IMG/VR virus record: IMGVR_UViG_3300045741_000127
Coordinates: 1 to 40,336 of that record
DNA: 40,336 bases
From: a virus
Direction: 5' to 3' (one strand)
This document shows, one piece after another, positions 6,981-40,336 of this stretch. The notes below the pieces were generated by a model. The model searched no databases. It saw only the letters and a program-made list of their open reading frames with translations, and had not been told where the DNA came from. A program made the position numbers and the translations under genes. Positions within the stretch are counted from its first letter, which is position 1. Every line of letters begins with the position of its first letter.

Positions 6981-7277
6981 TCACTTGGCCTTCGGCTCGA
7001 CCATCGCGGCGTCGTACCAGGACGCGACGCTGGTGCCGTAGTTGCTGCCGCCCATGCCTGCGTCGACATGGCCGTTGAACGTGGCGCTGTAGACGTTGTG
7101 CTGGTTCGCGGGCGTGAACTCGCGAACCGCATTCACCATCGAGTTGGCGGCCGCAACGCACGTGTCGATCAACTCCTGCGTCGGGCGCACGTCGGGGTGA
7201 ATCTCTTCGAGCGCCTTCTTCGCGGCGGCGATCGCCTCCTCGAAGGTCTTGCCGCTGCCGGATACGCTGTAGCTCAT
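6981..7277 (-). CDS. Hypothetical protein, 98 aa
   Basis: The ATG at 7277 has a GAGGAG SD seven bases upstream; a GTG one codon earlier is less well placed. Residues about 8-55 look helical (FEEAIAAAKKALEEIHPD, then a TQELIDTCVAAANSMVNAV stretch). The rest is Gly/Asn/Ser-rich with an AGMGGSNYGTSVASWYDAA segment. No membrane segment or known motif is seen. It lies directly downstream of the large terminase gene in the late unit. Function unknown. Confidence 0.7.
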   Translation of the reverse strand: MSYSVSGSGKTFEEAIAAAKKALEEIHPDVRPTQELIDTCVAAANSMVNAVREFTPANQHNVYSATFNGHVDAGMGGSNYGTSVASWYDAAMVEPKAK

Positions 7278-7298
7278 CACTCATCTCCTCAGTTTTGC

Positions 7299-8816
7299 TC
7301 ATGAAGCCCATGAGCTGGTTGACCGGTGAGTCGGTCGATAGCGGTCCTTTTTCTCGTTGGCGTCCTTCATCTCTTTCGGCCACACCAACGAAAGCTCGGG
7401 ATCTGGCTCGGCGATACGTGCCATGGCGTCCAAGCCGTCGTCGTGGCGCGAGCCGGGGAACGCGAGGAGCTCCTCCTCAACAAACTGGTCGATCATGTTG
7501 CGTGTAACGCCGTCGTGCATCGTGCGGTGGATCGAAGTCGGCAGCCACATGCGGTGCTGTTCGAAGATCGGAATCATCCGGCGGATGCGCTGCTCTTTGA
7601 CCACCGCGCCGCCCACAGGCGTGATCGCGAAGCGGTAGTTCTTGAGGTTCTGCACATAGCGGATGTGCTCGATGTCCGCCTGCATCCCGTACTCCTCGTA
7701 ACGGGTCTGCAGAGGCTTCCACTTCGCGTGCAAACGGAAGAGCTCGGCGGTGCGCTCAGTGAGGTTCAACTTGTCTCGCACGAGGTCGAGCACGTAGTAG
7801 TTCTTATCGGCGCCCAGGCCGAGCACCCACATCGTGGTGTAGTCGTTGCCCTTGTCCTTGCGCCGGCCGCTCGCCGGGTCGACGAGCAGGTACTTGTTGG
7901 TGCCCTCACCAACCTCTTCCGGATCGGCCTCGTAGTACTCGATCCAGTCGCGTTTGAATTCGCCACCACCGGGCGCTACGGGCTGTTGCATGTACAGCGA
8001 GAGCCACTGTCGAGAGTCGGTGTTGGCCTTGATGCGCTCAAGAGCCGCGCGGTCGTAACGCTGAGGCCAGGGAGGGTTGTCGAGATCAGCGGGTATGTTG
8101 ATGACGGTCCACTGATCCTTGCCGTCTTCCGACATTGCATCGAGCAACCGCCCGACAAGATCGTTGACGTGCATGCGGTGCTGAATGACGACGATGGCGC
8201 CGCCGGGTCGGATGCGGTTGTAGAACGTGCCTCGGTAGAAGGCCCAGACCTTGGCCTGCTGCGCGGCTGACTGGGCGTCTTCCCAGTTAGCGAACGGATC
8301 GTCGATGACGCCCAGGTCAGCACCGCGACCCATGACAGCGCCACCGATGCCCGTGGCGAAGTAGCCGCCGCCTTCTCGCGTCTGCCATCGGCCCTTGGCG
8401 TTGGTGTCTTCACTGAGTCGGACCCGGGGGAAGAGGCGCTGGTACTCGGGGCTCGAGATGCAGTTGCGAACAGCACCACCGAACTCTTCGGCAAGCGGAC
8501 TCGCGGCGCTGACGCCGATGACGTCCCAATGCGGCTTGCGACCGAGGATGTATGCCGGCATGCGCCGACTGGCGATCGTGGACTTGCCGTGCTGCGGTGG
8601 ACATAGCAGCAGGACCCGATCAATCTCGCCGTCAACAACTCGGTCGAACGTGTTGCATATGGTTTCATGCATCGGCCCCGGGCGCCATCGAGGTGTCGTG
8701 TACTCAATGAACCCGAGAGCCGTCTGTCGGCCCTGCGATCGTCGCTGCATCTCCAGGAGAAGCGTCTCCTCCTCGAGCAGCGCGGATAGCGGAGAGACGG
8801 GTCCGGAGCTGTTCAT
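7299..8816 (-). CDS. terL: Terminase large subunit, 505 aa
   Basis: This is the ATP-driven packaging motor with the nuclease that cuts concatemers. Walker A is CPPQHGKST at residues 72-80 and Walker B is VIDD at about 170-173. The motif IVVIQHRMH at about 208-216 fits the ATPase coupling region. The RNase H-like nuclease domain has LLVDPASG (D313) and SRHDDGLDAMARI (about 456-468), giving the expected acidic triad. The length is normal for the family. The ATG at 8816 overlaps the small-subunit gene by 113 bp. The N-terminal helix before the FIEYTTPRWRPGPMH segment is typical of TerL proteins, so this start is preferred. Confidence 0.93.
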   Translation of the reverse strand: MNSSGPVSPLSALLEEETLLLEMQRRSQGRQTALGFIEYTTPRWRPGPMHETICNTFDRVVDGEIDRVLLLCPPQHGKSTIASRRMPAYILGRKPHWDVIGVSAASPLAEEFGGAVRNCISSPEYQRLFPRVRLSEDTNAKGRWQTREGGGYFATGIGGAVMGRGADLGVIDDPFANWEDAQSAAQQAKVWAFYRGTFYNRIRPGGAIVVIQHRMHVNDLVGRLLDAMSEDGKDQWTVINIPADLDNPPWPQRYDRAALERIKANTDSRQWLSLYMQQPVAPGGGEFKRDWIEYYEADPEEVGEGTNKYLLVDPASGRRKDKGNDYTTMWVLGLGADKNYYVLDLVRDKLNLTERTAELFRLHAKWKPLQTRYEEYGMQADIEHIRYVQNLKNYRFAITPVGGAVVKEQRIRRMIPIFEQHRMWLPTSIHRTMHDGVTRNMIDQFVEEELLAFPGSRHDDGLDAMARIAEPDPELSLVWPKEMKDANEKKDRYRPTHRSTSSWAS

Positions 8817-9216
8817 CAGACATCTCTTCTATCGGTGTGGCCTGAGTAATGCTCAGATCTACCTTGTCGCCATAGTTGCGGGGCAGTAGCTTACTCAGAA
8901 GCCACTGACGCGCAGCAATCCTAACCTGCCGATGTCGCGGGTCAGTGCGCTCATCAGCGATTTGCAGGATCTCGTGGGATAGGAGCTCGATGCCCAGGCG
9001 CCGGGCGTGCGCGACTTGGTCTCGGAAGTCGGCGTCCTTGGCGTGCAGCGACCAGAAGCGTGGCCCAGCATCGCCCATGGACGCAAGGATCTCGGGGAGC
9101 GCGACGCCCATCGCGAAGCCTTCGAGCACGCGCTGCTTGAGCTGCGTGTCGTCGAGCTCGGTAGCGGCGGGCGCTTGTGGCGGCCAGTCGCTGTCGCCGT
9201 CGGGCCAGTCGAGCAC
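8704..9216 (-). CDS. terS: Terminase small subunit (putative), 170 aa
   Basis: The GTG at 9216 is the only in-frame start after an upstream stop, with an AGG SD element about nine bases before it. The protein is mostly helical. The pattern VLEGFAMGVALPEILASMG followed by RFWSLHAKDADFRDQVAHAR is the DNA-binding region seen in small terminases of the bacterial-phage type. The later RQWLLSKLLPRNYGDKVD segment, placed after an ARQ helix, is also typical. It lies directly upstream of terL in the same unit. It should recognise the packaging site, which I cannot locate. The last 113 bp are read in two frames. Confidence 0.8.
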   Translation of the reverse strand: MLDWPDGDSDWPPQAPAATELDDTQLKQRVLEGFAMGVALPEILASMGDAGPRFWSLHAKDADFRDQVAHARRLGIELLSHEILQIADERTDPRHRQVRIAARQWLLSKLLPRNYGDKVDLSITQATPIEEMSDEQLRTRLSAIRAARGGDASPGDAATIAGPTDGSRVH

Positions 9217-9234: not shown

Positions 9235-9315
9235 TCAGCACTTGCCCGGGGGCGTCTGGCCACGCTTCGTCGGGCCGGGGCCCTTCTTGCGTTCCGGTTT
9301 GCGCTTGTCACCCAT
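9235..9315 (-). CDS. Small basic peptide, 26 aa
   Basis: The ATG at 9315 has an AGGAG SD eight bases upstream and the recurring CAACCAACC leader. It encodes MGDKRKPERKKGPG followed by TKRGQTPPGKC, a short, highly basic, disordered peptide ending in Cys. Short basic peptides just upstream of terminase occur in other phage genomes. The strong ribosome site and leader argue for real translation. It would be the first gene of the leftward late unit. Confidence 0.55.
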   Translation of the reverse strand: MGDKRKPERKKGPGPTKRGQTPPGKC

Positions 9316-9365
9316 CGCTTGGCTCCTGGTTGGTTGGAAAGGGTGCGGACTGACCGCGCGCGGAT

Positions 9366-9458: not shown

Positions 9459-9623
9459 GGAACGTTCGATTACCCCATACGTTCCCAAAAGGGTCGCACG
9501 CGAACGTTCCTCCGTTCCGGGTATTAACCCCGGAACGGATGGAACGCTCGTCTCGCTCGGGTCCGGAACGTTCCCGGCGTTCCGGAACGTTCCGGAACGT
9601 TCGGAACGCTCACCTCGGGAACG
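9459..9623. other. Candidate replication origin: GGAACG/CGTTCC repeat cluster
   Basis: The gene-free stretch 9316-9662 holds eight GGAACG (9459, 9532, 9541, 9565, 9584, 9594, 9603, 9618) and six CGTTCC (9480, 9505, 9513, 9569, 9578, 9588) within 165 bp. Several are paired as the palindrome GGAACGTTCC, and the densest run is 9561-9608. A perfect hairpin lies inside the cluster and an AT-rich stretch (9625-9660) flanks it. Iteron clusters next to an AT-rich unwinding region beside a replication gene are the classical form of an origin; here the cluster directly follows the primase-helicase gene. It could instead be a multi-site operator. Confidence 0.6.
9511..9539. other. Perfect 11-bp stem hairpin in the repeat cluster
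   Basis: TCCGTTCCGGG (9511-9521) pairs perfectly with CCCGGAACGGA (9529-9539) around the seven-base AT-rich loop TATTAAC. Each arm contains one copy of the cluster hexamer. It could extrude as a cruciform at an origin. No T-run follows on either strand, which argues against a simple terminator. Confidence 0.6.
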
Positions 9624-9629
9624 CTCAAT

Positions 9630-9659
9630 TGTCAATTTAACCTTCCTTTTCTCTTGACA
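9630..9659. promoter_or_regulatory. TGTCAA...TTGACA inverted repeat with 18-bp spacer
   Basis: TGTCAA (9630-9635) and TTGACA (9654-9659) are inverted and preceded on the right arm by TTTTCTC. This resembles the TTTCTCTTGACAA core of the rightward promoters near 18170 and 21320, but the spacing is 18 instead of 7. No good -10 follows on either strand. It sits in the AT-rich flank of the candidate origin and just after the primase-helicase stop. Confidence 0.4.
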
Positions 9660-9662
9660 AAG

Positions 9663-11660
9663 TCAGGCCAGCCAGTCGCCTTCGAGCGCGTTCTGGCCCA
9701 GCTTCAGGCCCCTCCTGGCACCCTGATCCACCACCACCCCGTCGGCGATGAGCGCGTCGATCAGGGCCCACACGTCGCGCTTGCGGCCACCCACCGCGCC
9801 GTACACGTCGGTCCGGGTGGGGCTCTCGCCTGCTGCGCAGGCCTTGGCTATCGCGTCGATGATCTTCTGCTTCAAGGGGTCCTCCGGTTGGGTTGCGTCC
9901 TGCACGTTGATGCCGTCGGTGATCGCGAGCGAGGTGACCGGGTCGCCCTGGTCGTCCACGATGCCCAGGTCCACCACCTTGGTCACGAGTGAGCGAGGCG
10001 CAGGCGCCTCACCCTCCTTCATCTTCTGGCACTCCAAGCGCACGTGCAGGGGCGCCAGCTTCTTGCACTCGTACTCGAAGTCGACGGCCGCGCGCAGCAC
10101 CGTGCTGCCTCGGATCTCACCTTCCTTGTTGGCGTGGTGCACGAAGCCCACCGAGATGCCTGGGAACGCGTGCCGAATCCGATCGGCCGCAGCGACCATC
10201 GCGTTCATGTCCTGCTGGCTGTTCTCGTCGCCGCCCATGTTGCGGGCGACCGTGTCGATGATCACCAGCACGGGCAGCTTCTTCGCCTTGGCGATCGCCT
10301 GGATCACGCCCTCGACCGACTCCGGGTCGTCGAGCGCTATACGGCCCTTGGAAACGCCCAGGCGGCCTTCAGGGGCCGGCTCGACGTGGTTGGCTAGGCA
10401 CCATGCCCGGATGCGGTTCTTGAGCCCCCTGCGGCCCTCTCCGGCGATGATGAGCACGTCGCCCTGGTGGCAGTCGTGCCCGAGCCACGGCACGCCCCAG
10501 GCGATCGCGCAGGCCCACGAGACCGCGACAAAGGACTTGTAGCTGCCGGGCTCGCCCCAGAGCACGCCCACCGAGTCGCGCTCCAGGTACCCGCGTATCA
10601 GCCAGACCGGTGCGGACGGCTCGACGTCGGTGAGCCACTCGAAGAGCCCGCGGTCGTCTTTTGCAGCCGGGCGCTGCAACTTCTGCATGTGCTCACGCCA
10701 CAGCCGCGCGGTGCGCTCGTCCATCTCGGTCGAGGGGAAGTCCTGCGGGACCTGCTCGCGTGCCAGCGTGCGCTCGATGAAGTGCAGGCCCGACTTGCCG
10801 GGCGTGGGGATGAAGGTGTCCCAGCGATCGCTGTCGCCGTTGCGCCACTTCACCGAGGTCTGCGACCACGCCACCCATAGATCGAACGCCCACGGCCTGC
10901 CGCCCGCCTTCAGGTGGTGCCCGACGTTGATCCAGGTCTCGCGGTCATCGGCGTCGAGCCACTCGAGGGCGCGCACCAGGGCCGGCGGGGCCTCGGCCTG
11001 CGCGTAGCTGTCGTAGTGCGTGATCGGCACCGCCTTCGCGCGGCGCAGGAGCGTGCTGCCGGCGGTCGTGGCGACAGCGCGCTCGCGCGGCCGGTACCCG
11101 AGCTCGAGGGCGAGCCCGTAGACCGCATCAACGATCGCCCTGGCCTTAACCTCGTCGACCAGGGGCAGCTCGTCACGCTCGACAGCGAGCGGGTTGCGCG
11201 TGAGCCATTCGTAGGGTTTGCCGGTGTCGGGATGCTCACCGAACGCGGCGAGCTGCTGACCGTCGCCCAGGAATTCGATCTTCTCGATCGCGCCGTCGGG
11301 CGAGACCACGCTGCGCTGGATCTTCGGGAACGGCTTGTTGGTCTGGAAAAGCAGCGCGAAGCGCGGCGCCCGGCCGACCCGCACCGGGTAGCCGGTCAGA
11401 CCGAAGCGCGACTGGAGCGTCGCCTCGATGCGCTCGCGTGCCTCGGGGTGCTCCAGGTCGATGTCGAGTGCGGGAGTGGTTCGGGTCAGGAGCCCGACAT
11501 TGCACTCTGAGTGCCGCTGCAGGTCACGAGGGGAGAGCGCGTAGTTCACCCACCCATCAGTGAAAGCGGCCTTACCTCTAAGAGGTACTACCCTGTAGCC
11601 GTGATCAGTGAGGCGCTGCGCCAGCTTGCCGAAGGCGCCGGCTGTTGTGCTAGGATTCAC
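9663..11660 (-). CDS. Primase-helicase (Prim-Pol + RepA-type AAA ATPase), 665 aa
   Basis: It would lay primers and unwind DNA at the phage fork. Residues about 1-170 fit the bifunctional primase-polymerase domain, with the catalytic DID at 66-68 and the GDGQQLAAFGEHP segment at about 132-143. Residues about 225-300 fit a PriCT-like linker (LEWLDADDRETWINVGHHL). Residues about 350-560 are a RepA/RecA-like helicase with Walker A GEPGSYKS at 369-376, Walker B VLVIIDT at 464-470 and a VGFVHHANK motif. The C terminus looks like a winged helix. The GTG at 11660 has an AGAGGAAGGA SD. It is the only replication enzyme on the minus strand, and the candidate origin follows it directly. Confidence 0.88.
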   Translation of the reverse strand: MNPSTTAGAFGKLAQRLTDHGYRVVPLRGKAAFTDGWVNYALSPRDLQRHSECNVGLLTRTTPALDIDLEHPEARERIEATLQSRFGLTGYPVRVGRAPRFALLFQTNKPFPKIQRSVVSPDGAIEKIEFLGDGQQLAAFGEHPDTGKPYEWLTRNPLAVERDELPLVDEVKARAIVDAVYGLALELGYRPRERAVATTAGSTLLRRAKAVPITHYDSYAQAEAPPALVRALEWLDADDRETWINVGHHLKAGGRPWAFDLWVAWSQTSVKWRNGDSDRWDTFIPTPGKSGLHFIERTLAREQVPQDFPSTEMDERTARLWREHMQKLQRPAAKDDRGLFEWLTDVEPSAPVWLIRGYLERDSVGVLWGEPGSYKSFVAVSWACAIAWGVPWLGHDCHQGDVLIIAGEGRRGLKNRIRAWCLANHVEPAPEGRLGVSKGRIALDDPESVEGVIQAIAKAKKLPVLVIIDTVARNMGGDENSQQDMNAMVAAADRIRHAFPGISVGFVHHANKEGEIRGSTVLRAAVDFEYECKKLAPLHVRLECQKMKEGEAPAPRSLVTKVVDLGIVDDQGDPVTSLAITDGINVQDATQPEDPLKQKIIDAIAKACAAGESPTRTDVYGAVGGRKRDVWALIDALIADGVVVDQGARRGLKLGQNALEGDWLA

Positions 11661-11731: not shown

Positions 11732-11929
11732 TCACGCGTTTCGCGCCAGCAACGCCTCCTCGACCAGCATCGAGATCACCTTCGACACCGTGCGGTCCTC
11801 GGCCTTCGCAACGGCCGCGACGCGATCGGTGAGCGAGGCCTTTGCGATGAACGACACCTGACGGGTCGACTCCGGTGCCGCCTTCTTGGCCGGCTTGCGC
11901 TTGATGCTGCTCTTCTTGGAAGTGCTCAC
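11732..11929 (-). CDS. Ribbon-helix-helix DNA-binding regulator, 65 aa
   Basis: The GTG at 11929 has an AAAGGAG SD. The first 22 residues are a basic, Lys/Pro-rich tail. Residues about 23-31 (RQVSFIAKA) form the DNA-contacting strand, about 32-46 the first helix and about 47-64 the second (VSKVISMLVEEALL), matching the ribbon-helix-helix fold of Arc/CopG-type regulators. It is divergent from the first rightward gene, and a near-palindrome overlaps the promoter between them. It is likely to repress the rightward unit and perhaps itself. This is inference from fold and position. Confidence 0.75.
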   Translation of the reverse strand: MSTSKKSSIKRKPAKKAAPESTRQVSFIAKASLTDRVAAVAKAEDRTVSKVISMLVEEALLARNA

Positions 11930-11961
11930 GAGGAATCTCCTTTGCGGGGTTAAAGAGTTTA

Positions 11962-11978
11962 CGCGCCAACTTGACGCG
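11962..11978. promoter_or_regulatory. 17-bp near-palindrome, candidate operator
   Basis: CGCGCCAA-C-TTGACGCG reads almost the same on both strands, with one mismatch between arms. It overlaps the -35 (11971-11976) of the rightward promoter and lies 32 bases upstream of the regulator gene. Dyad operators of this size suit a ribbon-helix-helix dimer or tetramer. Confidence 0.55.
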
Positions 11979-11999
11979 AAAATCAGGGTACCGTAATGT
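11971..11999 (+). promoter_or_regulatory. Main rightward (early) promoter
   Basis: TTGACG (11971-11976) is followed after exactly 17 bases by TAATGT (11994-11999). The first rightward start codon is at 12035, and the leader contains CAACCAACCAATCCGGAGA. The spacing and both boxes fit sigma70. The -35 lies inside the candidate operator. Confidence 0.65.
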
Positions 12000-12034
12000 G
12001 ATCGTCCTTTCAACCAACCAATCCGGAGAACCTG

Positions 12035-12445
12035 ATGCAGTTCACCTTTACCTCCGCAGAGCCCAAGGACAACCTCGTGATGCTCAAGAACATCATCGAA
12101 GTCCTCCTGGCTCGCGAGCCCGGCAAGCCCGCCAACGAGACCCCGCAAAGCGCCATCAAGGCTGACGTGCTCGCCCCCACGACGACTGCGGCGGGCCCTG
12201 GCAGCACCGCGCACGTCCCGGTCGAGCCGAAGGCGACGAAGGCCACGAAGCCCAAGGCCAACGGCGCTGATAAACCGGCCCCGGTGCCCACGCTCGACGA
12301 GATACGTCTCGTCCTGATGGGAAAGTCGAAGGACGGCAAGGAAGAGCAGGGCAAGGCGTTGCTCGGCGAATTCGGGTGCGTGAAGCTTTCGCAGATCCCG
12401 GAGGACCGCCGAGTCGAATTCATGGCGCGTGCGCAGGCACTCTAA
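12035..12445 (+). CDS. Hypothetical protein, first gene of the rightward unit, 136 aa
   Basis: The ATG at 12035 follows a CGGAGA SD. There is a short N-terminal helical part (residues 1-30) and a Pro/Ala/Lys/Thr-rich linker (about 31-85). The C-terminal 50-residue helical domain opens with LDEIRLVLMGKSKDGKE and holds a LLGEFGCVKLSQIPEDRR stretch. That C-terminal domain resembles a small repeat found at the end of phage early proteins; I know no proven function. The low-complexity linker suggests two tethered modules. Confidence 0.75.
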   Translation: MQFTFTSAEPKDNLVMLKNIIEVLLAREPGKPANETPQSAIKADVLAPTTTAAGPGSTAHVPVEPKATKATKPKANGADKPAPVPTLDEIRLVLMGKSKDGKEEQGKALLGEFGCVKLSQIPEDRRVEFMARAQAL

Positions 12446-12454
12446 GCCGCGACG

Positions 12455-13564
12455 ATGAGTGCTGGTCACGCAGTACTGGCGCCTTCGGCGTCACTGCGGT
12501 GGATGCTTTGTCCCGGCAGCGTTCGCCTGACGAGGGATCTACCTGAGACTTCGAGCGCGGCCGCTGACGAGGGCACGCTCGCTCACTCCATCGCGGCGGT
12601 GTGCATCACGTCGCGCACGCCCGTCGACCATCACCCGATGGCGGGCGATCTCGAGGACCTGTGCGAGGGCAACATCGAGGCCCTGCAGACCTACGTCGAC
12701 TACGCGATCTCGCTAGTCGACGAGCCGGGCGTCATGCCCTACGTCGAGCAAACCTTTCGGCTCGATCACGTGCTCGGCGAGGAGGCGTTCGGCACGAGCG
12801 ACCTGTGCGTCGTGAAGGGTAAGCAGGCGCGCGTGGTCGACTTGAAGTTCGGCAAGGGCAACGTCGTGTACGCGAGCTATCGCATCAATGGCGTGATGCG
12901 CCCGAACCCGCAGCTCGTGCTCTACGGCCTGGGCGTGCTCGAGAAGCTCGCGTGGCTGGTAGAGGACGTCGACGAGGTGGTGCTCGAGATCTTCCAGCCG
13001 CGTCGCAACCACCGCAGCGAGGTGATCGTGCCGATCGCCGAGATGCTCGAAGAGAAGGGGCGCTTTGCCAAGGTGGCCGAGGTCACGCGCAGGCCAGACG
13101 CGCCGCTCATCCCTGGCGAGGCGCAATGCCAGTGGTGCCCGGTGCGCGCGACCTGCGCGGTGCGCTCGGAGTGGGTGATCGAGTCCTTCCAGACCGAGGT
13201 CGCGTTCATGAACCCGCACGAGCTCGCGCATCACCTGGAGAAGGTCGACGCGATCCGCGCATGGTGCAACGACCTCGAAGAGCTCGCGACCGCGCGCCTG
13301 CAGCGCGATCCGAAGTCGATCCCCGACTGGAAGCTGGTCGAGGGCATGAGCCGGCGCAAGTGGCGGCCCGATGCGATGTCGATCCTGAAAGACCACGACG
13401 ATCTCTTCGTCCGTCAACTCGTCACCCTCGGCGCCGCCGAGAAGTTGATGGGCAAGGACAGCACGCTGCTCGCCAGCGCGCTGGAGAAGCCCCGCGGAAA
13501 GCCGACCCTGGCGCCCGCGTCGGACCCCAGGCCGGCGTTGATCGATACGCCGCTCTTTGACTAA
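12455..13564 (+). CDS. DUF2800 family, Cas4/RecB-like PD-(D/E)XK nuclease, 369 aa
   Basis: The protein has the RecB-nuclease order of motifs: ADEGTLAH at about 37-44, GTSDLCVV with D116, the catalytic DLK at 129-131, and QLVLYGLG at about 153-160. Four Cys are placed as in Cas4/AddB iron-sulphur nucleases: one early (C19) and three late (C225, C228, C234 in CQWCPVRATC). An iron-sulphur cluster is inferred. In phages this family sits beside a DUF2815 protein and a family A polymerase, as here, so an exonuclease role in replication or recombination is likely. No strong SD precedes the ATG nine bases after the upstream stop. Confidence 0.85.
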   Translation: MSAGHAVLAPSASLRWMLCPGSVRLTRDLPETSSAAADEGTLAHSIAAVCITSRTPVDHHPMAGDLEDLCEGNIEALQTYVDYAISLVDEPGVMPYVEQTFRLDHVLGEEAFGTSDLCVVKGKQARVVDLKFGKGNVVYASYRINGVMRPNPQLVLYGLGVLEKLAWLVEDVDEVVLEIFQPRRNHRSEVIVPIAEMLEEKGRFAKVAEVTRRPDAPLIPGEAQCQWCPVRATCAVRSEWVIESFQTEVAFMNPHELAHHLEKVDAIRAWCNDLEELATARLQRDPKSIPDWKLVEGMSRRKWRPDAMSILKDHDDLFVRQLVTLGAAEKLMGKDSTLLASALEKPRGKPTLAPASDPRPALIDTPLFD

Positions 13565-39761: not shown

Positions 39762-40336
39762 GCGGCCTCGAACTCCATCCAGCCTGCGGTGTAGCCGGCG
39801 GCCGCGCGGAAGGCATCAACTTGCCCGGAGGTTAGCGTCTGGGTAAACGTGGCAAGGGCGGCAGGCGCAGGCGCGTGAACATACTCGACGATAGTCGAGG
39901 CCCCGGCACCGATGCGGGCCTTGATCGTGCCTGCGCCGTTGCCCCGGATGCGGTACGTGAAGCGGTGGCCGTAGTTCACCAGCGGGTCGACCATCGGCCC
40001 CAGGTTGACCCGCATCGTGCTCACCACATCGGTCGAGTCGAAGTCCGAGTCGTCGAGGTCATCGATCATCGCGAACAGGGGTTGGCCGGCAACGCTGGGT
40101 TGCCACGCGCCCGCAAGCGCGTCCGAGGTTGGGAACGTGCGGGCCACCGCGTAGATGTCGGTTCCGAGCGTCCCCAGGGCGCAGGTCGCCTCGAGGCCTG
40201 AAAGGGGGACAGTGATCGCGCCGCCGGAGCTCGACGGTGTCACGGTGCCGAGCGCGCCGGTCGCGACGAGACCGGTCAGGGTGGCCGAAATCGACACGCC
40301 GATCGCGCCCAGGGCGCCGAGCGCCTCCTGGCCCGC
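39758..40336 (-). CDS. TGALG-repeat virion protein, 3' part
   Basis: This is the C-terminal end of the 677-residue protein that begins at 1582. Bases 40210-40336 duplicate bases 1-127. It carries the last repeat units and then a non-repetitive C-terminal domain of about 130 residues, including the acidic run DDLDDSDFDSTD and a beta-rich stretch. An ATG inside the duplicated part (40297) gives an apparent 179-residue gene, but this is an artefact of where the contig was cut. The stop overlaps the next ATG as ATGA (39758-39761), so translation is probably coupled to the 155-residue protein downstream. Confidence 0.85.
   Translation of the reverse strand, partial: AGQEALGALGAIGVSISATLTGLVATGALGTVTPSSSGGAITVPLSGLEATCALGTLGTDIYAVARTFPTSDALAGAWQPSVAGQPLFAMIDDLDDSDFDSTDVVSTMRVNLGPMVDPLVNYGHRFTYRIRGNGAGTIKARIGAGASTIVEYVHAPAPAALATFTQTLTSGQVDAFRAAAGYTAGWMEFEAA
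40210..40336. repeat. 127-bp terminal direct repeat (right copy)
   Basis: This is an exact copy of bases 1-127. It lies inside the leftward repeat-protein gene and should be trimmed before the molecule is treated as circular. Confidence 0.95.

Follow-up and report, generated by a model that had tools for sequence, protein, structure and literature searches.

A putative iteron origin directly 3' of the primase-helicase gene in a phage genome, with counterparts in related phages

Results

Replication origins are unknown for most phages. The locus considered here raises the question of whether a dense cluster of short repeats beside a primase-helicase gene is the place at which a phage begins to copy its genome. 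The phage is represented by IMG/VR record IMGVR_UViG_3300045741_000127, and the whole of this 40,336-base stretch, hereafter the window, was analyzed. The ends of the record (1-127 and 40210-40336) overlap exactly over 127 bp, indicating that the assembly is circular or permuted and that the true genome is 40,209 bp long; a 127-bp end overlap is typical of the k-mer overlap that an assembler leaves on a circular or permuted genome. The phage encodes a P22-like portal, an Sf6-type small terminase subunit (TerS), and a large terminase, and the repeats lie between the primase-helicase and small terminase genes, both of which are on the minus strand. The features discussed below are as follows.

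8704..9216, minus strand: small terminase subunit (TerS), Sf6 type; neighbor of the array and basis of the packaging-site alternative
9459..9623, no strand: iteron array, 14 copies of GGAACG/CGTTCC (8 forward and 6 reverse by the plus strand)
9511..9539, no strand: perfect hairpin TCCGTTCCGGG-TATTAAC-CCCGGAACGGA, two inverted iterons with an AT-rich loop
9562..9596, no strand: second iteron inverted repeat with 13-bp arms, an alternative fold
9624..9663, no strand: AT-rich stretch (67.5% AT), candidate DNA-unwinding element
9663..11660, minus strand: primase-helicase, 665 aa, with Prim-Pol, PriCT_2, RepA-like (AAA_25) helicase, and C-terminal winged helix; proposed initiator
9666..9908, minus strand: codons of the C-terminal domain (residues 585-665), a predicted winged helix and the proposed iteron-binding domain

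A preliminary description of this DNA had proposed a candidate phage origin here, citing 14 hexamer copies in 165 bp, a perfect hairpin inside the cluster, an AT-rich stretch beside it, and a position directly after the primase-helicase gene. All four observations held on reanalysis. The 14 copies of GGAACG/CGTTCC, whose extended form in this phage is CGGAACG(T), contrast with simulation: across 200 first-order Markov genomes matched in dinucleotide composition, no 165-bp stretch had more than 4. The highest count of any 6-mer per 165-bp stretch elsewhere in the genome is 6. The hairpin has a perfect 11-bp stem (9511-9521 paired with 9529-9539), and the array region folds far better than its shuffles (z = -7); because the stem is made from two inverted repeat copies, hairpin and repeats do not count as independent features. 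No 40-mer in the entire genome is richer in AT than 9624-9663, which fills the gap between the array and the primase-helicase stop codon. The array stops 39 bp short of that codon and, since the gene is on the minus strand, is situated 3' of it. One part of the description did not survive: the copies were said to be joined in many cases as a palindrome, and the full palindrome GGAACGTTCC is present only twice, at 9565 and 9584.

Multiple copies of a short word in noncoding DNA and an adjacent AT-rich region are general marks of iteron origins, and this locus has both, the latter as judged by composition. No DnaA boxes were found anywhere in the window with up to one mismatch allowed. GC skew does not switch at the array, either in the window or in Rhizobium phage RHph_N65 (a relative described below), and gave no usable signal for origin placement.

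We examined the protein encoded beside the array. Pfam assigns Prim-Pol, PriCT_2, and AAA_25 domains to it. A profile built from 32 relatives matches the RSF1010 RepA helicase (1g8y, E 7e-16), and the top PDB matches of the AlphaFold model of the primase-helicase (1nlf, 1olo, and 1g8y) agree with this assignment. The last 80 residues are predicted to form a helix-helix-helix-strand-strand arrangement (595-654), with block pLDDT values of 84-92 across residues 601-640 of the full-length model. When folded alone, the C-terminal domain has a mean pLDDT of 75 (AlphaFold), and the isolated model resembles DNA-binding proteins of the winged-helix class, DtxR and LexA among them (Foldseek, probability 1.00, E ~2e-3). 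These models predict a C-terminal winged helix at residues 595-654, as in origin-binding initiators of this type, and mark it as the putative reader of the iterons.

To survey other phages, relatives of the primase-helicase were gathered by protein similarity alone, with array presence playing no part, and were collapsed to 63 families at 60% identity, of which 62 were covered by a 3' test and 58 by a 5' test. An array was scored when a single 7-mer occurred at least 5 times within 350 bp 3' of the gene, and 701 3' regions of other genes from the same loci served as controls. Arrays were found 3' of the primase-helicase gene in 28/62 families versus 12/701 control regions (Mann-Whitney p = 2e-17) and hairpins of at least 10 bp at the same position in 17/62 families versus 22/701 controls (p = 4e-10), although these p values overstate the evidence somewhat, since common ancestry among several CGGAAGT families leaves the set less than fully independent. 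None of the 58 regions covering 350 bp 5' of the same genes reached 5 copies. Twenty-five of the 28 array-bearing families match the RepA-like helicase region, and the array regions of the 28 are AT-rich, with a median at the 96th percentile within their own locus. About half of the families have no array by this simple 7-mer score; by eye, some of these clearly hold diverged arrays and others hold none.

The repeat word itself varies by lineage, from CGGAACG in this phage to CGGACAT, GCGGAGAT, CGGAAGT, CGGAACT, and CGGAGGT, and further to GCGAGGGT, TGCAAGT, TGACGACA, GAGCGTGCA, GGTGGCAC, and TGGTGCCA, with CGGA common to many of them. Across lineages, the position of the array, the AT-rich stretch, and the hairpins recur while the word changes. 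The cluster that the preliminary description had suggested looking for beside related primase-helicase genes is thus conserved in position and form but not in hexamer sequence, and this diversity of motifs at one fixed position is a more robust point than the p values.

The collections searched held no close relative, and a near-identity search in phages returned no match, which leaves the GGAACG array without a direct counterpart for comparison. An exact search for GGAACGTTCCGGAACG in IMG/VR returned ten loci, but no similar array or setting was seen at any of them, which indicates that the motif itself is not shared. The closest full-length relative (L136; 31%, or 36% in the aligned pair) is on a contig of an alphaproteobacterial MAG and has, directly 3' of its primase-helicase gene, an AT-rich stretch followed by eight copies of CCGGACA(T). 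Rhizobium phage RHph_N65 carries 12 copies of GGCGGAGAT and EBPR siphovirus 5 carries 9 copies of CGGAAGTA, starting no more than 10 bp from the stop codon. In Escherichia coli phage vB_EcoM-611R5, AGGTGAC occurs 9 times (the AGGTGACG array) directly after the primase gene.

Motif similarity tracks protein similarity, with Spearman coefficients of 0.41 for the helicase domain and 0.38 for the C-terminal domain. In partial Mantel tests, the correlation of motif with C-terminal domain given the helicase was 0.07 (p = 0.16), and the reverse was 0.18 (p = 0.014). This test does not allow motif specificity to be assigned to the C-terminal domain as opposed to other parts of the protein.

A rearranged locus bears on how protein and array change. 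L005 (IMG/VR 2833015273_000006) contains at 7000-8830 three tandem modules, each composed of a C-terminal-domain segment and an array, with the motifs GGTGGCAC, GGTAGCA, and AAGGTGACG, respectively. An intact primase-helicase gene is followed by GGTGGCA (8 copies), a fragment of the C-terminal segment, GGTAGCA (8 copies), a third fragment, and AAGGTGAC (5 copies). The repeated segment DNA is 75-77% identical, and neither of the first two motifs occurs in the array of the other. The domain-coding segment and the array were therefore duplicated together and now differ together. The vB_EcoM-611R5 protein shows 34% identity, and its C-terminal segment scores best against module 3 over the whole fragment (163 versus 117 and 71), with module 3 nearly tied with module 1 over the part common to all three modules (88 versus 85); this sequence comparison is only suggestive of a closest relationship to module 3, whose motif the phage shares.

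Two other elements were observed near the arrays of relatives. A conserved non-iteron element, TAAGTCATTGAAATCATTGA, lies between differing iterons in the 350 bp that follow the primase-helicase gene in L146, L153, L158, L178, L206, L211, and others. It was counted 56 times across 3' regions from 226 loci, versus 41 times in 1.74 Mb elsewhere (some contigs were counted twice). It is absent from the window and is perhaps a host-factor site. Separately, a gene of about 200 aa is located downstream of the primase-helicase gene in L264 (4899-5525) and also in L267, L292, L301, L309, L291, L228, and L303. Its product has a C-terminal domain with homology to the corresponding primase-helicase domain (27-42% identity) and is possibly a regulator that binds the same origin.

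Discussion

Three other functions for the array were weighed against an origin. The small terminase subunit, encoded 240 bp beyond the array, might bind it as a packaging (pac) site. The genome assembles as a circle, which headful packaging would lead one to expect, a pac phage would be consistent with the portal (P22-like) and TerS (Sf6-type), and the array is placed between the primase and terS genes. A headful pac site would be expected to stay with the terminase genes in relatives, however, and there the arrays follow the primase-helicase gene and are usually far from terminase. In RHph_N65 the terminase is 8.6 kb from the array, and in L136 TerS is 1.8 kb off, behind other genes, and belongs to another Pfam family. 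Among 27 array-bearing relative loci, matches to the L136 TerS were found only in L136 and at the edge of L211, and the window TerS was matched in 0/27. We regard a packaging site as very improbable. An operator is a still fainter prospect, whether for a transcription regulator such as the small ribbon-helix-helix (RHH) protein encoded upstream of the primase-helicase gene or for repression of the terminase operon. The palindrome GGAACGTTCC is operator-like, an RHH-like domain is present (below the Pfam cut-off), and there is one weak promoter-like site downstream (9393-9364), but 14 copies per 165 bp are not operator-like, and the gene downstream of the array varies among phages. The RHph_N65 array lies between two convergent genes and so serves no promoter. 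No protein like the RHH protein was found near the arrays of the 27 relative loci, which makes it, by these comparisons, a poor candidate array binder.

The hairpin might instead be the functional element, as a stem-loop origin or a terminator, with the repeats as a by-product. In pRN1 the origin is an iteron-free stem-loop located 3' of the replication gene, and BPP-1 has a stem-loop as well (PMC4234260); hairpins are enriched at the 3' position in our survey. Many families nevertheless hold long direct-repeat arrays in a single orientation with no long stem (in L158, 11 copies are forward and 0 are reverse), no intrinsic terminator was found, and an Rfam search gave no match, leaving this explanation improbable. 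The iteron-origin interpretation put forward in the preliminary description is thus supported by the enrichment of arrays in relatives, by the predicted winged helix, and by the failure of the packaging explanation in those relatives. From the sequence evidence, we consider it very likely that the array is a phage replication origin read by the phage's own primase-helicase.

We infer the following steps of binding, melting, and initiation at such an origin. The C-terminal winged helix would bind the CGGAACG(T) iterons that directly follow the 3' end of the gene encoding it, and several primase-helicase protomers would assemble on the array. The AT-rich stretch at 9624-9663 would then open, RepA-like helicase rings would load, and the Prim-Pol domain would begin primer synthesis, perhaps at the hairpin in the manner of RSF1010 ssi sites.

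Parts of this arrangement are known from other elements. SaPI Rep recognizes iterons directly downstream of its own gene via its C-terminal domain, and the C-terminal domain of SCCmec Cch2 binds repeats downstream of its gene (PMC7581432). The present array is likewise directly downstream of a helicase gene, with iteron and protein specific to each element, but SaPI and SCCmec are satellites with D5-like helicases (PMC7581432), whereas here a RepA-like helicase (RSF1010) is fused to Prim-Pol in an autonomous phage. Iterons are used with a different initiator in the PLE satellite (PMC7145576). As cited in one study, P4 alpha combines a primase of the TOPRIM type and a helicase with a C-terminal winged helix that binds origin repeats (ori and crr) (PMC4234260). 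The primase here is a Prim-Pol, and the likeness to P4 alpha lies in the C-terminal winged helix, which in this phage comes from predicted structure (AlphaFold and Foldseek). To our knowledge, the P4 alpha helicase is not RepA-like.

RSF1010 has a matching helicase, RepA, and an origin with iterons, an AT-rich stretch, and hairpins, a likeness to the array described here. It differs in having three separate proteins (RepA/RepB'/RepC) and a separate oriV, where this phage has one polypeptide and a putative origin 3' of its gene. The domain order Prim-Pol, helicase, and C-terminal winged helix with an origin 3' of the gene is shared with pRN1 ORF904 and BPP-1, the latter also having PriCT_2. Those two have an SF3 helicase and a stem-loop 3' of the replication gene for which the authors state no iteron structure (PMC4234260), in contrast to the 14 iterons and RepA-like helicase here, and we found no array 3' of the replication gene in BPP-1. 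Of the tested relatives, ORF904 comes closest in domain order, and it did not bind its own 3' region specifically (PMC4234260). The present system would work in the manner of SaPI and P4 at the pRN1 position with a RepA-type helicase, without belonging strictly to any of these groups.

The architecture is known from SaPI, SCCmec, and P4 (with iterons) and from pRN1 (with a stem-loop), and its variant in phages is apparently widespread. We found no description of such a system for these phages in the open-access literature, and a literature search on the palindrome returned no relevant paper. We lean slightly toward a broader view, in which these phages make up a large replicon class where a single polypeptide unites Prim-Pol with a RepA-type helicase and a winged helix that reads iterons, and the matching array sits just 3' of its gene. 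The cassette formed by the C-terminal segment and the array would differ in specificity between lineages and could be duplicated, as in L005 with its three cassettes and three motifs, and phages could alter origin specificity by changing or swapping it. The L005 cassettes suggest a way for related phages to avoid a common origin within one cell. If the rule of a repeated word just 3' of the primase-helicase gene holds, the sequence would suffice to locate origins in dozens of phage lineages, and the paired protein and iteron sequences would provide natural data on how winged-helix DNA specificity changes.

Three observations concern other parts of the window. A 26-codon lysine-rich frame, MGDKRKPERKKGPGPTKRGQTPPGKC, lies at 9238-9316 on the minus strand just upstream of the small terminase gene and is preceded by the promoter-like site at 9393-9364. 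The listed 245-aa ORF at 11732-12469 is probably overextended, with the RHH domain forming its last 65 residues (about 11732-11929). Imperfect 60-bp periodic repeats are present at 12-678, inside the minus-strand ORF at 2-1582, and may be compared with those of fibrous tail or collagen-like proteins.
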